Positions 1,484 through 8,145 of a stretch of DNA of 29,909 bases are shown here, one piece after another. The DNA comes from a virus. The DNA is taken from positions 1 to 29,909 of IMG/VR virus record IMGVR_UViG_3300037963_001728. One strand, given 5' to 3'. Below the pieces are notes generated by a model. That model did no database searches and was not told the DNA's origin. It worked only from the letters and a program-made list of their open reading frames with translations. Each line of letters begins with the position of its first letter. Within the stretch, counting starts at the first letter, position 1. A program made the translations under genes and the position numbers.

Positions 1484-2248
1484 ATGTCTAAAAATATAAC
1501 AACTAAATCAAATACGTCAGTATCACCTATAATGGATGATATTCTTAATTCAGCAGGCGAAGGTATTGATTATGATACAAATGAATTACAAATTCCTTTT
1601 ATCAGAGCGATACAAGCCTTATCACCACAGATCAAGAAGAATGATCCGCAGTTTATTGAAAAAGCATCTCAAGGTGATTTGTTTAACACTGTTACAGGTG
1701 AGTTCTGGGATGGTGAAAAAGGTATCGTAGTTATACCTTGCTACCAGGAAACAAAATATCTTGAGTTCATTCCAAGAGATCAAGGCGGTGGTTTTGTCGG
1801 TGAGATAGAAGTAGACTCACCTGTTCTTAGTCAGACTACCAGGGACAGAAGTGTTGAGATACTTCCTAACGGCAATCAGTTGGTTAAGTCCGATCAACAT
1901 TATTGTATGGTCTTGAATGATGATGGCAGTGCACAACCTGCTATTATTGATATGAAGTCTTCTGCTTTGAAAGTAAGTCGTAGATGGAAGACACAAATAG
2001 CAATGTTCAAGATCCAAGATAAGAATGGAGAGTTCAAACAACCTGCCTTATTTGCTACCAAGTGGCGAGTTAAGACAGTTGAAGAGTCTAATGAACTAGG
2101 TACATGGTACAATCTCAATATAGAGAAAGTCGATCTGGTTGATTCCAAGGCTCTGTTTGATGAAGCGAAAAGCTTTCGATCATCAGTGATGAAAGGGGAG
2201 GCGAAAGCTGTAGCTGAAAACCTTGAAGGCGAAGAAACACCCTTCTAG
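1484..2248 (+). CDS. Probable single-stranded DNA-binding protein
   Basis: 254 residues with a GGGAGG ribosome site. The protein has an N-terminal segment, NELQIPFIRAIQALSPQIKK, of a kind seen in phage proteins encoded beside primases, then a beta-rich core with many aromatic and basic residues. It ends in an acidic tail, EGEETPF. An acidic tail with a terminal Pro-Phe is the hallmark of bacterial SSB C-termini and of functionally similar phage proteins, where it recruits other replication proteins. Its place just before the primase fits. There is no canonical OB-fold signature that I can recognise, so the role rests on tail plus context. Another phage DNA-binding protein family is possible. 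Confidence 0.6.
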   Translation: MSKNITTKSNTSVSPIMDDILNSAGEGIDYDTNELQIPFIRAIQALSPQIKKNDPQFIEKASQGDLFNTVTGEFWDGEKGIVVIPCYQETKYLEFIPRDQGGGFVGEIEVDSPVLSQTTRDRSVEILPNGNQLVKSDQHYCMVLNDDGSAQPAIIDMKSSALKVSRRWKTQIAMFKIQDKNGEFKQPALFATKWRVKTVEESNELGTWYNLNIEKVDLVDSKALFDEAKSFRSSVMKGEAKAVAENLEGEETPF

Positions 2249-2252
2249 GGTT

Positions 2253-2257
2253 AGGAG
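2253..2257 (+). promoter_or_regulatory. AGGAG ribosome site displaced from the primase start by a hairpin
   Basis: The primase ATG at 2297 is directly preceded by a run of T and one C, with no ribosome site in the normal window. The only AGGAG lies at 2253-2257, 39 bases upstream. The intervening hairpin (2258-2289) begins at the next base, so folding it leaves seven unpaired bases (2290-2296) between AGGAG and ATG, a normal spacing. Bridging of a ribosome site by a hairpin is known for T4 gene 38; its use here is inferred. Confidence 0.5.
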
Positions 2258-2295
2258 AGTAGCAGTGTTACCCTCATTACACTGCTACTTTTTTT
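2258..2295 (+). terminator. Intrinsic terminator or attenuator between ssDNA-binding protein and primase genes
   Basis: A perfect 11-base-pair stem is formed by AGTAGCAGTGT (2258-2268) and ACACTGCTACT (2279-2289), with a 10-base loop and a run of seven T (2289-2295). It starts ten bases after the TAG of the upstream gene. Because the primase starts at 2297, any promoter for the primase must lie upstream of this hairpin, so downstream genes depend on readthrough. That would give more ssDNA-binding protein than polymerase and helicase. Confidence 0.85.
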
Positions 2296-2296
2296 C

Positions 2297-3835
2297 ATGT
2301 CAGTAGCACAGAAATTTTTTGATTTATTTGAAGGCTCTAATCTAGCACATGGTGAAACTACTGTGGGCAGTATGAGACGTAATGGTAAGGCTGAAGCAAA
2401 AAGCATTATCGTCAAGACACCTTTGTCTGTTGAAATGATAGAGGGTCATTTAAAAGGTGTCAAAGGTATAGGTTCAATACCTATTACAGATAAGAATGAA
2501 TGTAAGTTTGGTGTCTTAGATATAGACAGTTATAATGTAGATCACAAAGAGATAGCAAAGAAATGTAAAGCATTGAAGATACCGGCAGTTGTTTGCCGTT
2601 CAAAGTCTGGTGGTGCACATATATTTATATTTATGAAGGATTGGGTAAATGCTGCGGAGTTTCGTGATCATCTGTTCGAGATTGCTGCAGCACTAGGTTT
2701 TTCTGGTTGTGAGATATTTCCAAAACAAGATCAGATATTAGCAGATCGTGGTGATGTAGGTAATTTTATAAACCTACCATACTTCGATAATGATAAGACA
2801 GTTCGATATGCAGTGGACGAAAAGGGTAAAGATTTAAGTCTTCAGCAGTTTATTACACAAGCAGATAAAAAAAGAATTACGATACATGATCTTAAAAAGA
2901 TAGATTTCGGCACGAGAAGAGAAGAGTTCTCTGATGCTCCGCCATGTCTACAAGGGTTTTTAAATTTAGGTGTGCCACAAGGTTCAAGGAACACAGTTCT
3001 ATTTAATGTATGCACATACTGTCAGAAGAAGGACAAGGATACCTGGCAGAAGATGTTTGAGGAGATAAACCAAAAGTATTCGTCTCCACCACTACCCGCC
3101 ACGGAGATTGTTGCGTTACAGAAACAACATGAGAAGAAAGAGTATCAGTATCAATGTAATGTTGAGCCGTTGAAGAGTCATTGTGATAAGCAGGTTTGCA
3201 AAACTAGAAAGTATGGTGTAGGAAATGGTAACTCAGCACCTTCAATAGGAGGCCTTACAATACTGTTATCTGATCCAAGACTATTCTTTCTGGATGTAAA
3301 CGGCAGACGGCTTGAGTTATCTACAAAACAATTACAGATGCAGCAACATTTTCAAGAGGCTTGTATAGAGCAGTTAAACTATATGCCACCAATTATGAAA
3401 CCAGGTGAGTGGCAAACATTGATTAATCGTCTGTTAGAGAAGGCTACGACTATTGAAGTGCCAGAAGAGTTAACTATGAAGGGTCAGTTTAAAGAGTTGC
3501 TACAGACGTACTGCACAAGCAGAATAAGGGCACGATCACCAGAGGAACTAAATATAGGTAAGCCGTGGACAGAGAACGATCTTACATACTTTACGATAAA
3601 AGGTTTACAGGAGTTTTTAAGACAACGTGGTTTTAATGGTTACACCAGACCTCAACTTCAACAAAGGTTGAAAGATTTGAACAGTGGTCAGAATTGCAAT
3701 GGTGTATACACATTGAAGAATGATGAAACAGGGAAATGGTCAAACATACGAGTTTGGTGGGTTCCAGAGTTTCACGAAGAAGAAGTTGAATTACCAATAG
3801 AGGAGAGCAGTGATGAATCCGACATCCCATTCTGA
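2297..3835 (+). CDS. AEP-superfamily DNA primase (TOTE/PrimPol-like)
   Basis: 512 residues. The start region FFDLFEGSNLAHG resembles the N-terminus of TOTE-type archaeo-eukaryotic primases. Metal-binding motif I is VLDID (D75, D77); motif II is SKSGGAHIFIF (S104, H108); the region NFINLPYF (156-163) fits the conserved core that follows. A PriCT-like helical part (GVPQGSRNTVLF, 225-236) precedes a cysteine cluster (C287, H295, C296, C301) that may bind a metal. The C-terminal 190 residues look alpha-helical, possibly DNA-binding, and end in ESDIPF, an SSB-like tail. The family makes primers for DNA synthesis, here presumably for the PolA in the same operon. There is no helicase domain in the same chain; separate helicases are encoded nearby. 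The last 23 bases overlap the next gene. Confidence 0.8.
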   Translation: MSVAQKFFDLFEGSNLAHGETTVGSMRRNGKAEAKSIIVKTPLSVEMIEGHLKGVKGIGSIPITDKNECKFGVLDIDSYNVDHKEIAKKCKALKIPAVVCRSKSGGAHIFIFMKDWVNAAEFRDHLFEIAAALGFSGCEIFPKQDQILADRGDVGNFINLPYFDNDKTVRYAVDEKGKDLSLQQFITQADKKRITIHDLKKIDFGTRREEFSDAPPCLQGFLNLGVPQGSRNTVLFNVCTYCQKKDKDTWQKMFEEINQKYSSPPLPATEIVALQKQHEKKEYQYQCNVEPLKSHCDKQVCKTRKYGVGNGNSAPSIGGLTILLSDPRLFFLDVNGRRLELSTKQLQMQQHFQEACIEQLNYMPPIMKPGEWQTLINRLLEKATTIEVPEELTMKGQFKELLQTYCTSRIRARSPEELNIGKPWTENDLTYFTIKGLQEFLRQRGFNGYTRPQLQQRLKDLNSGQNCNGVYTLKNDETGKWSNIRVWWVPEFHEEEVELPIEESSDESDIPF

Positions 3836-4028
3836 AGATGATGAGCTTCTCACATTAACGGATATTGTCGAATGGATAAAGGTTTCCGAGTCTACTATCT
3901 ACAGATGGATGGACGAAGGTATCTTTCCAAGACCTTTGAAGTTAGGTGCGGAGAGCAAACAGAGTCCTATGCGGTGGATACGCAAGGATGTATCTGATTG
4001 GATTAAAACTAGACCAAGGACAAAGTAA
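3813..4028 (+). CDS. AlpA-like helix-turn-helix DNA-binding protein
   Basis: 71 residues. The pattern LLTLTDIVEWIKVSESTIYR, then WMDEGIFPRPLKLG and a final MRWIRKDVSDWI, is the classic AlpA/excisionase-like winged helix-turn-helix layout. AGGAG at 3801-3805 is best placed for the ATG at 3813; a GTG at 3810 is the in-frame alternative. The gene overlaps the end of the primase gene in another frame and the helicase start by one base (TAATG). Proteins of this family act as transcription activators or as excisionases. With no integrase in view, a regulatory or origin-binding role is as likely as excision. Confidence 0.8.
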   Translation: MNPTSHSEDDELLTLTDIVEWIKVSESTIYRWMDEGIFPRPLKLGAESKQSPMRWIRKDVSDWIKTRPRTK

Positions 4029-5545
4029 TGTTAGAAAAATTAATCTTTGGGCCACCAGGCTGTGGCAAGACGTTTACGTTAATAAACGTGGTTCGTGATG
4101 CGTTGAAAAAGGGTACACCACCAGATAAGATAGGCTTTGTATCTTTCTCTCGTAAATCAGTTGAAGAAGCTAGAACAAGGGTTGCAACTGAACTAAATCT
4201 TACAGAGGAGGACACACCCTGGTTTAGAACTTTACACTCTACGGGTTTTCAATGGCTTGGTTTTAATAAAGATCAAGTCATGTCTAAATATGATTTTAAC
4301 AATATTGGTAATGAGGTTGGGTTAGTATTCGACACAAATACAGCTAGAAATAGTCAAGATGGTTTGATAAACATGTCAGCCAGAGAAGGCAACAAGTATC
4401 TTGAGGTTATACATAGATCTATTATGAGATGTGTATCTTTAGAGGAGCAGTTTAACGAAACAGAAGATTATACATTACACTGGACGTTACTTAACAAACT
4501 TAATGCTGTCTATCATAATTTTAAAAAAGAAAACGATAAAGTTGATTTTACAGATATGATTAAAGGATTTGTAAGAGGGGGCAGTTCACCCAGTTTAGAT
4601 TTATTAATTGTAGATGAAGCACAAGATTTAACTCCGCTACAATGGAGACAGGTTGATGTTATGAAACATAATGCCAAAGAGATATGGTATGCAGGTGATG
4701 ATGATCAATGTATACACAGATGGAATGGTGTATCTGTTGAGGACTTTATGAACTCTTGTCATAATATCGAAGTTTTAAAACAAAGCTACAGAGTTCCTAC
4801 TTCTGTTTTTTCTGTTGCGAATAGAATTGTAAAAAGAATATCTTATCGCCAACCTAAAGATTGGCATCCTATGATGAAGCCTGGCAGTGTTAACTATCAT
4901 TTAAATATGCATGATGTAGATATTGACCAAGGTTCGTGGACAATCATGGCCCGTACAAATAAAATTGTACAAAAGATAGCAAACTCTTTACGAGAGGATG
5001 GGTATCTTTTTAATCTATATGGTTCACCTAGTTTAAATCAAGGCATGATTAATAACATGAAGACATGGGAGCTTTTGCAGAAAGGCAGTAAGCTACCTTT
5101 ACAGATGATCAAAGATTTGTATGCTGCACTTCCCAAAGTGGGAGATAATGCAAAAATTAAACGTGGTGTGACAAAACAGTTAGATTTTTTAGAGCATGAT
5201 CTTATTCTTGGATATGATGATTTAGTTAAAAACTACGGGATGATTGCACCAAAAGACACTCCCTCAAGAGATATGCTGAATGTATCAAAAGATGATCGGT
5301 TTTATATGGATGCGTTGATTAGAAGAGGAGAAGATTTTGAATCTCCAAGGATCGATGTGTCAACTATTCATGCCATGAAAGGCGGTGAGGATGATAACAT
5401 CATGCTTATGTCCGAGTCATCTCGTGCTTGTGTCAAGAACGAAAACCAGGATGATGAGCATAGAGTCTTTTATACAGGTGTTACAAGAACAAAAGAAAAC
5501 TTACATATAATAGAAACAGGGTCGGAGCATAGGTATCAAATATGA
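4028..5545 (+). CDS. UvrD/Rep-type SF1 DNA helicase
   Basis: 505 residues with a complete SF1A set: motif I GPPGCGKT (8-15), Ia FVSFSRKSVEEAR (37-49), II IVDEAQD (194-200), III GDDDQCIHRWNG (223-234), IV QSYRVP (252-257), V STIHAMKGGEDDNI (445-458) and VI FYTGVTRTKENLHI (481-494). The protein is shorter than cellular UvrD (about 720 residues), mostly in the accessory subdomains. It is a 3'-5' DNA translocase by family. Placed between primase and polymerase, and with no DnaB-type helicase in the window, it is a candidate for the fork helicase. The start codon overlaps the preceding stop, and the end overlaps the next gene by four bases (ATGA). Confidence 0.9.
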   Translation: MLEKLIFGPPGCGKTFTLINVVRDALKKGTPPDKIGFVSFSRKSVEEARTRVATELNLTEEDTPWFRTLHSTGFQWLGFNKDQVMSKYDFNNIGNEVGLVFDTNTARNSQDGLINMSAREGNKYLEVIHRSIMRCVSLEEQFNETEDYTLHWTLLNKLNAVYHNFKKENDKVDFTDMIKGFVRGGSSPSLDLLIVDEAQDLTPLQWRQVDVMKHNAKEIWYAGDDDQCIHRWNGVSVEDFMNSCHNIEVLKQSYRVPTSVFSVANRIVKRISYRQPKDWHPMMKPGSVNYHLNMHDVDIDQGSWTIMARTNKIVQKIANSLREDGYLFNLYGSPSLNQGMINNMKTWELLQKGSKLPLQMIKDLYAALPKVGDNAKIKRGVTKQLDFLEHDLILGYDDLVKNYGMIAPKDTPSRDMLNVSKDDRFYMDALIRRGEDFESPRIDVSTIHAMKGGEDDNIMLMSESSRACVKNENQDDEHRVFYTGVTRTKENLHIIETGSEHRYQI

Positions 5546-5805
5546 AAAGAGATCAGATATTAGATAAAGCAAAGATATTGATCAGTGGTGAAAGAGCAAA
5601 GGATTATGGTGATGCTTACCTTAATCACAAGAGGATAGCTGAACTCTGGAGTCCAATACTTGATAAGGATATTACAGTTGAACAAGTGTATGCTTGTATG
5701 ATTGCTGTTAAGTTATCTAGATTAATTGAAACACCAGACCATGAAGACTCGTGGATTGATATATGTGGATACGCTGCATTAGGAGGAGAGAAGAATGAGA
5801 GATAA
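5542..5805 (+). CDS. DUF6378-like small phage protein
   Basis: 87 residues. The pattern SGERAKDYGDAYLNHKRIAE, then LWSPIL, MIAVKLSRLIETPDHEDSWI and DICGYAAL at the end, matches what I know of the DUF6378 family, common in phage genomes beside nucleotide and replication genes. The conserved charged residues (R19, K21, D22, D25, K57, R60, D66, D73) recall all-alpha nucleotide pyrophosphohydrolases of the MazG type, but the metal-binding EExxE motif is absent, so no enzyme activity is claimed. It is embedded in the operon by a four-base overlap upstream and an 11-base overlap with polymerase downstream; its last codons carry the polymerase ribosome site AGGAGGAGAG. Confidence 0.7.
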   Translation: MKRDQILDKAKILISGERAKDYGDAYLNHKRIAELWSPILDKDITVEQVYACMIAVKLSRLIETPDHEDSWIDICGYAALGGEKNER

Positions 5806-7687
5806 CAGTACAATGCATTTTCTTGAACGTCTTGAACTTGACCAGATGGAGAATGATTGGACACCTCCTACAGAGTTTCCAGATCTGACAAACTGTAAAT
5901 ATATAGCTATAGACTTGGAAACAAAAGATCCAAACCTTAAAAAGCTAGGCCCAGGGTGGACACGCAAAGATGGATATGTAGTTGGTATAGCTATCGCAGG
6001 TGGTGACTTCATGGGTTATTATCCTATACGGCACGAAGCAGGTGGCAACCTTGCAGAGGATAGGGTTATGTCATGGTTAAAGGATCAATTGAACACTCCC
6101 AACATTCCAAAAATTATGCACAACTCCATGTATGATATGGGATGGCTATATGCCTCTGGTGTTGATGTGAAGGGCAAGATCATAGATACAATGGTTGCTG
6201 CACCTCTGGTAGATGAGAATAGGTTTTCCTATGCTCTGAATGCTCTAGGGCGGGATTACATAGACATGAGGAAAGATGAAAAGCTTTTGAGGGCAACAGC
6301 AAGTGATTGGGGAATTGATGCTAAAGAAGAGATGTGGCGATTACCTGCAAAGTTCGTTGGTGCATATGCCGAGCAAGACGTAATTATGACCTTGAAACTA
6401 TGGGATAGATTGCAGACAGAGATCACCTCGCAGAGTCTTGAAACAGTATTTGATCTGGAAACAAGCTTAATACCCGTTGTCATGGATATGAGAAAGAAAG
6501 GTGTAAGGGTAGATCTTGATCAAGCTGAAAAAGCAAGAAAAAAATTAATTAAAATAAAAGATGATTTAGTTCTTGACATAAAGAAAGAAACTAGTCTGGA
6601 AGTATTACCCTGGGTGGCAACAAGTATTGCATCTGTATTTGACTTTTACAAAGTACCTTACGGACGGACAGAGAGCAACAATCAGCCGTCTTTTACAAAA
6701 GCTTTCTTACAGACTTGTGAGCATCCTATTGCATCAAAGATATTGAAACTAAGAGAAGTTGATAAGGCAAACAATACGTTTATCGATAGTATACTAAGAT
6801 ACGAGCACAAAGGCAGAATACATTGTGAATTTCATCAGCTGAGATCAGATGACGGAGGGACAGTTACTGGTCGCTTTTCTTCTTCTAATCCAAATCTGCA
6901 GCAGATACCTGCTAGAGATCCAGAGATTAAGTCTTTGATAAGAGGTTTGTTTCTACCAGAAGAAGGCACAAAGTGGGGGAGCTTTGACTATTCGAGCCAG
7001 GAGCCAAGGTTATTGGTTCATTATTGTGCGAGTCTTGGTGAAGATAGACATCCCAAGATTGATGAACTTGTAGAACAATATAATACAGATGATCCAGACT
7101 TTCATCAGATGGTGGCAGACATGGCTGAGATTAATCGTAAACAAGCCAAGACAGTTAACCTTGGTATTATGTATGGTATGGGCATAGGTAAGTTGGCAAA
7201 TACTCTAGATATAACAAAAGAAGAAGCCAAAGAGTTGTTAGCTAAATATCATTCTCGTGTGCCATTTGTAAAAGGTTTGGCAGACATGGTTTCTTCCAGA
7301 GCATCTAGATACGGACAGATACGGACTATCTTAGGTAGACGTTGCCGTTTTAATTTATGGGAGCCTAATAGTTTTGGTTATAAGAAACCTTTAAAGTATG
7401 AAGAAGCACATAAGGAGTATGGGCCTAGTATACGAAGAGCCTTTACTTACAAGGCATTGAACAAACTTATACAAGGCAGTGCTGCAGATCAAACGAAGAA
7501 GGCTATGGCGGACTGCTATGAAGAAGGGTTTTGTCCGTTAATCACTGTGCATGATGAACTATGCTTTAGTATAGAGTCCGAGGATCAAGCATCGAAGATC
7601 AAGGAGATTATGGAAACGGGTCTTGAACTAAAAGTTCCAAGTAAAGTAGACCAGGAGTTAGGTGATAATTGGGGAGAGGTTGGATGA
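5795..7687 (+). CDS. Family A DNA polymerase with 3'-5' exonuclease, Leu762 type
   Basis: 630 residues. The N-terminal proofreading domain keeps its acidic residues: D40 and E42 in AIDLETKD, D114 in HNSMYDMGWL, and Y191/D195 in YAEQD. The polymerase domain shows VTGRFSSSNPNLQQIP (357-372), motif A FDYSSQEPR (D398), motif B RKQAKTVNLGIMYG (R448, K452, L456, Y460) and motif C VHDE (585-588). L456 aligns with E. coli Phe762. There is no 5'-3' exonuclease domain, as usual for phage polymerases. AGGAGGAGAG precedes the ATG at 5795. It should be the replicative polymerase of the phage. The stop overlaps the next start (ATGA). Confidence 0.95.
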   Translation: MRDNSTMHFLERLELDQMENDWTPPTEFPDLTNCKYIAIDLETKDPNLKKLGPGWTRKDGYVVGIAIAGGDFMGYYPIRHEAGGNLAEDRVMSWLKDQLNTPNIPKIMHNSMYDMGWLYASGVDVKGKIIDTMVAAPLVDENRFSYALNALGRDYIDMRKDEKLLRATASDWGIDAKEEMWRLPAKFVGAYAEQDVIMTLKLWDRLQTEITSQSLETVFDLETSLIPVVMDMRKKGVRVDLDQAEKARKKLIKIKDDLVLDIKKETSLEVLPWVATSIASVFDFYKVPYGRTESNNQPSFTKAFLQTCEHPIASKILKLREVDKANNTFIDSILRYEHKGRIHCEFHQLRSDDGGTVTGRFSSSNPNLQQIPARDPEIKSLIRGLFLPEEGTKWGSFDYSSQEPRLLVHYCASLGEDRHPKIDELVEQYNTDDPDFHQMVADMAEINRKQAKTVNLGIMYGMGIGKLANTLDITKEEAKELLAKYHSRVPFVKGLADMVSSRASRYGQIRTILGRRCRFNLWEPNSFGYKKPLKYEEAHKEYGPSIRRAFTYKALNKLIQGSAADQTKKAMADCYEEGFCPLITVHDELCFSIESEDQASKIKEIMETGLELKVPSKVDQELGDNWGEVG

Positions 7688-8145
7688 GCAAATTAATTGC
7701 CGTTCCAATTAATTTAAAAGAAGCAAACGAATTTGTTGCTAGTTTTCATAGACATAACAAACCTGTAGCAGGTGCGAAGTTTTCTGTTGGATGTTCAGAT
7801 GGTGAACGTCTTGTTGGAGTAGCAATTACAGGAAGACCCGTAGCAATTAGAAAAGATGATGGCGTTACGGCTGAAGTTACAAGGTGCTGTGTTCTTGATG
7901 ATGCACCAAAAGGTACATGTAGTTTTCTCTATGCTTGTTGTTGGAGAGCTTGGAAGGCTATGGGTGGTAAAAGAATTATAACATACACATTACAAGCAGA
8001 AAGCGGTGCAAGTATGCGTGGTGTTGGTTGGAAACTTTTACATGAGGTTGAAATTAATAAACATAAAGGTTGGACAAACAGACCTGGTAGAGAGTGGCAG
8101 GCTGTCAGTGGTCAACAAAAATTCTGTTGGGGAGTAGAAGTTTAA
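7684..8145 (+). CDS. XF1762 family protein (GNAT-like fold possible)
   Basis: 153 residues from the ATG at 7684, which follows GGGGAGAGG; an in-frame TTG at 7669 would add five residues but lacks a suitable site. Features I associate with the XF1762 family: EANEFVASFHRHNKPVAGAK (13-32), GVAITGRPVA (45-54), DDGVTAEVTRCCV (58-70), CSFLYACCWRAWKAMGGKRI (79-98) and YTLQAESGASMRGVGW (101-116). The order of a substrate-binding histidine stretch, a Gly-Arg-Pro strand and a helix before the ITYT strand recalls N-acetyltransferase-like folds, but the function is not known. It overlaps the polymerase gene by four bases and is the last gene of the rightward operon, converging on the lysozyme gene. Confidence 0.75.
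   Translation: MSKLIAVPINLKEANEFVASFHRHNKPVAGAKFSVGCSDGERLVGVAITGRPVAIRKDDGVTAEVTRCCVLDDAPKGTCSFLYACCWRAWKAMGGKRIITYTLQAESGASMRGVGWKLLHEVEINKHKGWTNRPGREWQAVSGQQKFCWGVEV

Follow-up and report, generated by a model that had tools for sequence, protein, structure and literature searches.

The window analysed here is the whole 29,909-nt record of a marine phage (IMGVR_UViG_3300037963_001728), and its primase gene raises the question of how a start codon is reached when the Shine-Dalgarno (SD) word lies on the far side of a hairpin. Comparison with related phages makes it likely that the primase ribosome binding site includes this hairpin (2258-2289) as a structural element and belongs with the split translation initiation regions found in T4 genes 38 and 25. 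The replication genes and the elements of the junction are as follows.

906-1472, + strand: gene for a DUF7307 protein, part of the replication gene set
1484..2248, + strand: gene for a Pam3 gp34-like protein of 254 aa, probable ssDNA-binding protein (SSB); stop codon TAG at 2246-2248
2253..2257, + strand: SD AGGAG, 39 nt linear distance to the start codon; SD:anti-SD duplex -7.3 kcal/mol
2258..2268, + strand: 5' arm of the hairpin, AGTAGCAGTGT, pairing with the 3' arm
2269..2278, + strand: hairpin loop of 10 nt, TACCCTCATT
2279..2289, + strand: 3' arm of the hairpin, ACACTGCTACT, forming 11 Watson-Crick pairs with the 5' arm
2290..2296, + strand: U-rich spacer TTTTTTC between stem and start codon, also a terminator-like U-tract
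2297..3835, + strand: primase gene with an archaeo-eukaryotic primase domain; start codon ATG at 2297
4028-5545, + strand: gene for a UvrD-type helicase
5795-7687, + strand: gene for a family A DNA polymerase

The protein upstream of primase is of the Pam3 gp34 type (PF23977, E 2e-65; phrog_2402), one of its relatives is annotated as an ssDNA-binding protein, and its C-terminus, read from the sequence, is acidic (EGEETPF). From family, annotation and the acidic ETPF end it is probably an SSB, and it is called so below. The primase matches phrog_21866 (primase, E 1.6e-87) and PF22548 (AEP-TOTE). A sequence search against solved structures gave no significant match for the upstream protein and only weak matches for the primase. 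In a DNA search of annotated phages no nucleotide relatives of the window were found, and protein matches were all under 60%.

Anatomy and energetics of the junction

The 48 nt between the SSB stop codon and the primase ATG hold AGGAG, a perfect 11-bp hairpin with five G-C pairs and TTTTTTC. The earlier note had placed these elements from the letters alone (AGGAG at 2253-2257, an 11-bp stem at 2258-2289, a seven-base spacer all T but the last, ATG at 2297), and all of these positions hold. It had also claimed that there is no other ribosome site near the primase ATG, and no SD-like word occurs in the 22 nt that precede it. Primase stands alone in this among the plus-strand genes of the window: each of the seven others has such a word close to its start. 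The start at 2297 agrees with homology: sister clades start at the same residue (MSxxxxFxxxFEGS), some of them with an ATG that overlaps the upstream stop. An alternative upstream start was discarded, as no ATG, GTG or TTG follows the in-frame stop at 2252-2254 before ATG 2297 is reached.

The folding energy of the junction region is -23.9 kcal/mol, where shuffled sequences average -13.4 (z -3.75), and 1 of 200 dinucleotide shuffles folds as well. Simple hairpin and terminator scans gave no excess in the window and missed this hairpin, the terminator scan because it allowed loops of 3-8 nt only. Searching the window against Rfam gave no match above the gathering score.

With the stem formed, only 7 nt and the helix would separate AGGAG from the AUG, and a 30S subunit could pair with AGGAG and reach the AUG at a normal distance; with the stem unfolded, AGGAG would be 39 nt away and useless. 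We infer such use of the split site by ribosomes. Against delivery, the predicted fold lengthens the stem and forms weak A-U and G-U pairs between GGAG and the U-tract, which partly hide GGAG; the SD would therefore be mostly paired at equilibrium and not fully free (unpaired fraction of GGAG in the window, 0-0.17). By computation, freeing GGAG in the window costs 3.6 kcal/mol against -7.3 for SD:anti-SD pairing, and opening all structure up to the ATG would cost 22.5 kcal/mol. The same calculation gives 4.4 against -9.0 for T4 gene 38 and 1.5 against -5.8 for T4 gene 25. In two relatives (L003, L009) the cost of 6.2-6.3 about equals the SD gain of -5.9, and this net value near zero is a weakness for delivery.

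Conservation and recurrence of the layout

Relatives were collected by scans of a viral collection and one scan of a genome collection, giving about 290 loci; the junction between the two genes was extracted from each locus, and the primase start was placed by homology. The genome collection contributed one relative, L318 in a Maricaulis MAG, with a hairpin and then a downstream start region. Four kinds of junction (a to d) were found, plus a small clade that repeats the layout of (a) with an unrelated stem.

Kind (a), the window clade, comprises eight distinct junctions with GGAG, the stem AGTAGCAGTG/CACTGCTACT, 6-9 U-rich bases and ATG. In kind (b) a separate SD lies downstream of the hairpin, in most cases a GGAG that stands 6 nt before the ATG. 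In kind (c) stop and start overlap (TAATG) or lie at most 3 nt apart, and an intergenic hairpin is absent. Kind (d) (L123 and L157-L167) has a hairpin and no SD before the primase ATG: the intergenic hairpin is worth 20 kcal, the (A)ACC-ATG start is conserved, and there is no recognisable SD on either side of the hairpin, against 24 of 44 other long ORF starts at these loci that have one. Since primase is started after the hairpin in kind (d) without an evident SD, the SD may not be essential, a point that counts against delivery. In L151 and L152 the junction is 260 nt long, and an extra small ORF with its own SD has apparently been inserted between hairpin and primase.

GGAG and the stem core TAGCAGTGT...CACTGCTACTTTT are identical in all eight junctions of the window clade, while in the flanking genes 54% of four-fold degenerate columns vary and 46% are invariant; the comparison of 24-26 invariant positions at the junction element with this 46% treats sites as independent and ignores the tree, and is to be read as a guide and not as a p-value. 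Between the window and L008 or L010, 36-38% of four-fold sites differ. L001, at 3.4% divergence from the window at four-fold sites, differs in loop and U-tract but not in GGAG, stem or spacing class. Across the clade, loop length (for a stem of 10 bp) runs from 5 to 34 nt and the linear distance from GGAG to ATG from 32 to 63 nt, whereas the spacing with the hairpin collapsed is constant at 6-9 nt. GGAG adjoins the stem throughout; in L003 and L009 it overlaps the stem foot by two bases. The long loops of L001 (L001:4545-4610) and L005 (L005:4245-4313) hold ATG codons, and a short ORF there overlaps the primase start in another frame.

The stem shows no compensatory changes in the window clade, as the core is invariant, and covariation hence gives no signal either way; selection could therefore be on the sequence and not on the pairing. 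The stem has been preserved against large loop indels, and an unrelated stem re-evolved in the second clade. There (L133/L237, L141/L236 and L235/L238, the GC-hairpin clade) the junction reads GGAG-CGGGGGC-(TTCG/AATA/GTGA)-GCCCCCG-TATTTTT(T/CT)-ATG, with a collapsed spacing of 8-9 nt; across both clades the linear distance from GGAG to ATG is 26-63 nt. In the tree of the upstream protein the split layout requires two origins, on the branches starred in it, which means that the layout arose before primase twice independently. In-frame stop codons within the loop of L141 and L235 exclude a start upstream of the hairpin in these members; the loop of L133 has no in-frame stop and an in-frame ATG lies upstream of its hairpin, leaving the start ambiguous.

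The layout was also sought at other genes, as GGAG, AGGA or GAGG immediately before a perfect stem, 7 bp or longer, that ends 3-12 nt before a start without a linear SD. The sample held 5595 candidate starts from 319 loci (2.03 Mb, mostly related phage DNA). The layout was found at 11 of these starts, all of them primase starts of the two clades, where dinucleotide shuffles expect 2.5; a first pass had given 10 of 2769 against 1 expected.

The claim that the hairpin delivers the SD is thus well supported on several counts: SD and stem core are conserved, loop length is variable, collapsed spacing is constant, a second clade is independent and the layout is confined to primase. Junctions that keep a distant SD and have lost the stem, which the earlier note had set against its own reading, do not occur among the relatives.

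Terminator and boundary hairpin as other readings

The earlier note had given the hairpin two tasks, and this dual role is possible, although we would put it at somewhat less than an even chance: hairpin and U-tract would act behind the SSB gene as an intrinsic attenuator, and in transcripts that read through, the hairpin would be the spacer that lets primase be translated. The stem is followed directly by a U-tract, and the terminator score D (classical formula) is a terminator-like 12.2 for the window. D is also positive for L003, L008, L009, L010 and all three members of the GC-hairpin clade, and many sister junctions have GC-rich hairpins with T-runs and then a separate SD. Terminator quality is, however, not kept among relatives. 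D is negative (-9 to -23) in three of the eight members of the window clade (L001, L004, L005), which have interrupted U-tracts and yet keep SD, stem and spacing; loops of 31 nt (L001) and 34 nt (L005) are among these negative scorers, with the U-tract TTTTCTATTT. About half of the sister junction hairpins also have a negative D. The stem moreover begins 9 nt past the SSB stop codon. In E. coli a translating ribosome almost fully represses a terminator several bp downstream of a gene, and full efficiency is reached beyond about 27-30 nt (PMC4824070), so that at 9 nt termination would be nearly abolished. With three members scoring negative and the stem this close to the stop, attenuation is possible but not clade-wide. 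Judged from the sequences, then, it is SD, stem and spacing that are the common feature of the window clade, and not attenuation; of the two tasks, SD delivery is supported and the attenuator is only plausible.

All 164 SSB/primase junctions examined have a strong hairpin shortly before the primase start or a little way into the gene. At each of the 135 junctions without overlap an intergenic structure reaches -14 kcal/mol or lower, and the 29 with a stop-start overlap all have a strong hairpin at about codons 7-20 of primase, e.g. GCAGTGTTTGA-GGGA-TCAAGCACTGC. Examples of this coding hairpin, at about codons 6-23, are

L097:953-1006
L070:4777-4830
L119:1144-1197
L084:2184-2237
L132:4799-4852

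Against synonymous shuffles the coding hairpin has z values of -2.4 to -6.5. Four of its pairs have changed on both sides, with 15 double-change cells against 3.9 in shuffles, and in most members examined the strongest structural bias along the primase gene falls there. The same threshold is passed by 14 of the 135 members without overlap, against 29 of 29 with overlap; a sign test for a trade-off between intergenic and coding hairpin, with only four independent pairs, was not significant. The window's own primase has no coding hairpin, and the core of the latter (GCAGTG/CACTGC) is also found in the window's intergenic stem. In L132 a second coding structure at about codons 43-66 (z -5.9 against synonymous shuffles) is stronger than the start-proximal one.

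These counts and the paired changes favour a reading in which the hairpin serves only the gene boundary, protecting the 3' end of the SSB mRNA or binding a protein as an operator; the upstream GGAG would be incidental, and primase would be translated by coupling or by SD-independent initiation. The clade with a hairpin and no SD near the ATG agrees with it, and so does the invariant stem sequence of the window clade, as expected of a protein site. It leaves unexplained why GGAG abuts the stem at an invariant position in two independent clades, why the collapsed spacing is constant and why the layout is confined to starts without a linear SD; the loop, whose bases a protein operator would usually conserve, is the variable part, and coupling over 42-84 nt is unlikely. 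We therefore hold this reading to be improbable. An operator repeated along the genome was discarded: sequences within one mismatch of GTAGCAGTG number 10 in the window where 6.2 are expected, which is near chance, and the viral collection has this hairpin preceded by GGA(GA) in the window clade only. An inverted repeat bound by protein as DNA is unlikely, with an arm spacing that varies from 5 to 34 nt.

A boundary hairpin and the delivery of the SD can both hold. The boundary hairpin would have a general role, most likely to keep SSB output above that of primase, probably by protecting the 3' end of the SSB mRNA or by partial termination. The hairpin of the window would derive from the one retained by other lineages between the two genes or just within them; in the window clade and the GC-hairpin clade it would have been built into the ribosome site, and SD delivery is probably a lineage-specific use of it. 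A further version is more tentative, and we think it rather unlikely as a whole: the hairpin would be a fixed requirement that moves across the primase start between lineages and in two of them is both SSB terminator and assembler of the primase ribosome site. If true, one fold would limit primase mRNA and yet be required for primase translation.

That the hairpin is a product of chance without function is very improbable, for although simple scans find no excess of hairpins or terminators in the window, the fold z-score, the 24-26 invariant positions and the independent recurrence all speak against it.

Relation to the split sites of T4

In T4 a structure is reported to cut the SD spacing from 22 to 5 nt at gene 38 and from 27 to 11 nt at gene 25, mutations that weaken these structures were reported to lower translation, and the gene 25 structure is kept by close relatives and missing from distant ones (PMC3014915). 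The T4 gene 38 precedent cited in the earlier note agrees with both the T4 sequence and this source, and gene 25 also fits. The window likewise has an SD too far from the start linearly (39 nt) and a stable hairpin between the two, and the collapsed spacings of 6-9 nt (window clade) and 8-9 nt (GC-hairpin clade) fall within the 5-11 nt of T4 (PMC3014915).

Gene 38 shares with these junctions an SD by the upstream stop codon, a GC hairpin with a UUCG loop immediately behind that SD, a short A/U-rich spacer and the AUG, and the GC-hairpin clade (L133) looks very like it. It differs in that it encodes a tail fibre assembly protein and not a primase and in that the sequences are unrelated; the window hairpin is also longer, its loop in relatives can be as short as 5 or as long as 34 nt, and a terminator-like U-tract forms its spacer. 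Gene 25 also has its hairpin between SD and AUG, but it is another gene with another sequence, its site overlaps the upstream gene and no U-tract follows the stem. The intrinsic terminators between SSB and primase of the sister phages lie at the same junction, with a hairpin and then a T-run in many members; unlike in the window, their SD (commonly ACGGAG) follows the hairpin, in most cases with 6 nt to the ATG, which leaves the hairpin outside the ribosome site.

The literature searched, with few subscription papers in it, contained no other description of such a primase site. Very few genes, chiefly T4 38 and 25, are known to have a split ribosome site, and gene finders do not seek such sites. 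The mechanism is thus already known from these two genes; what is new is the gene, the two independent origins, the tolerance of loop length and the U-tract as spacer. Two origins at one replication gene, with loops of 5-34 nt, show a layout that is evolvable and tolerant, and the junctions form a natural variant series on which to study how a 30S subunit copes with a hairpin that parts SD and AUG. That a hairpin recurs on one or the other side of the primase start suggests an unrecognised control of the SSB/primase ratio in a large group of phages.

Farther along the window, 7669-8145 encodes a protein that matches phrog_1384, a family of Mom-like DNA modification proteins (E 4e-33; the Pfam Mom match is below its cut-off), possibly with an anti-restriction function.
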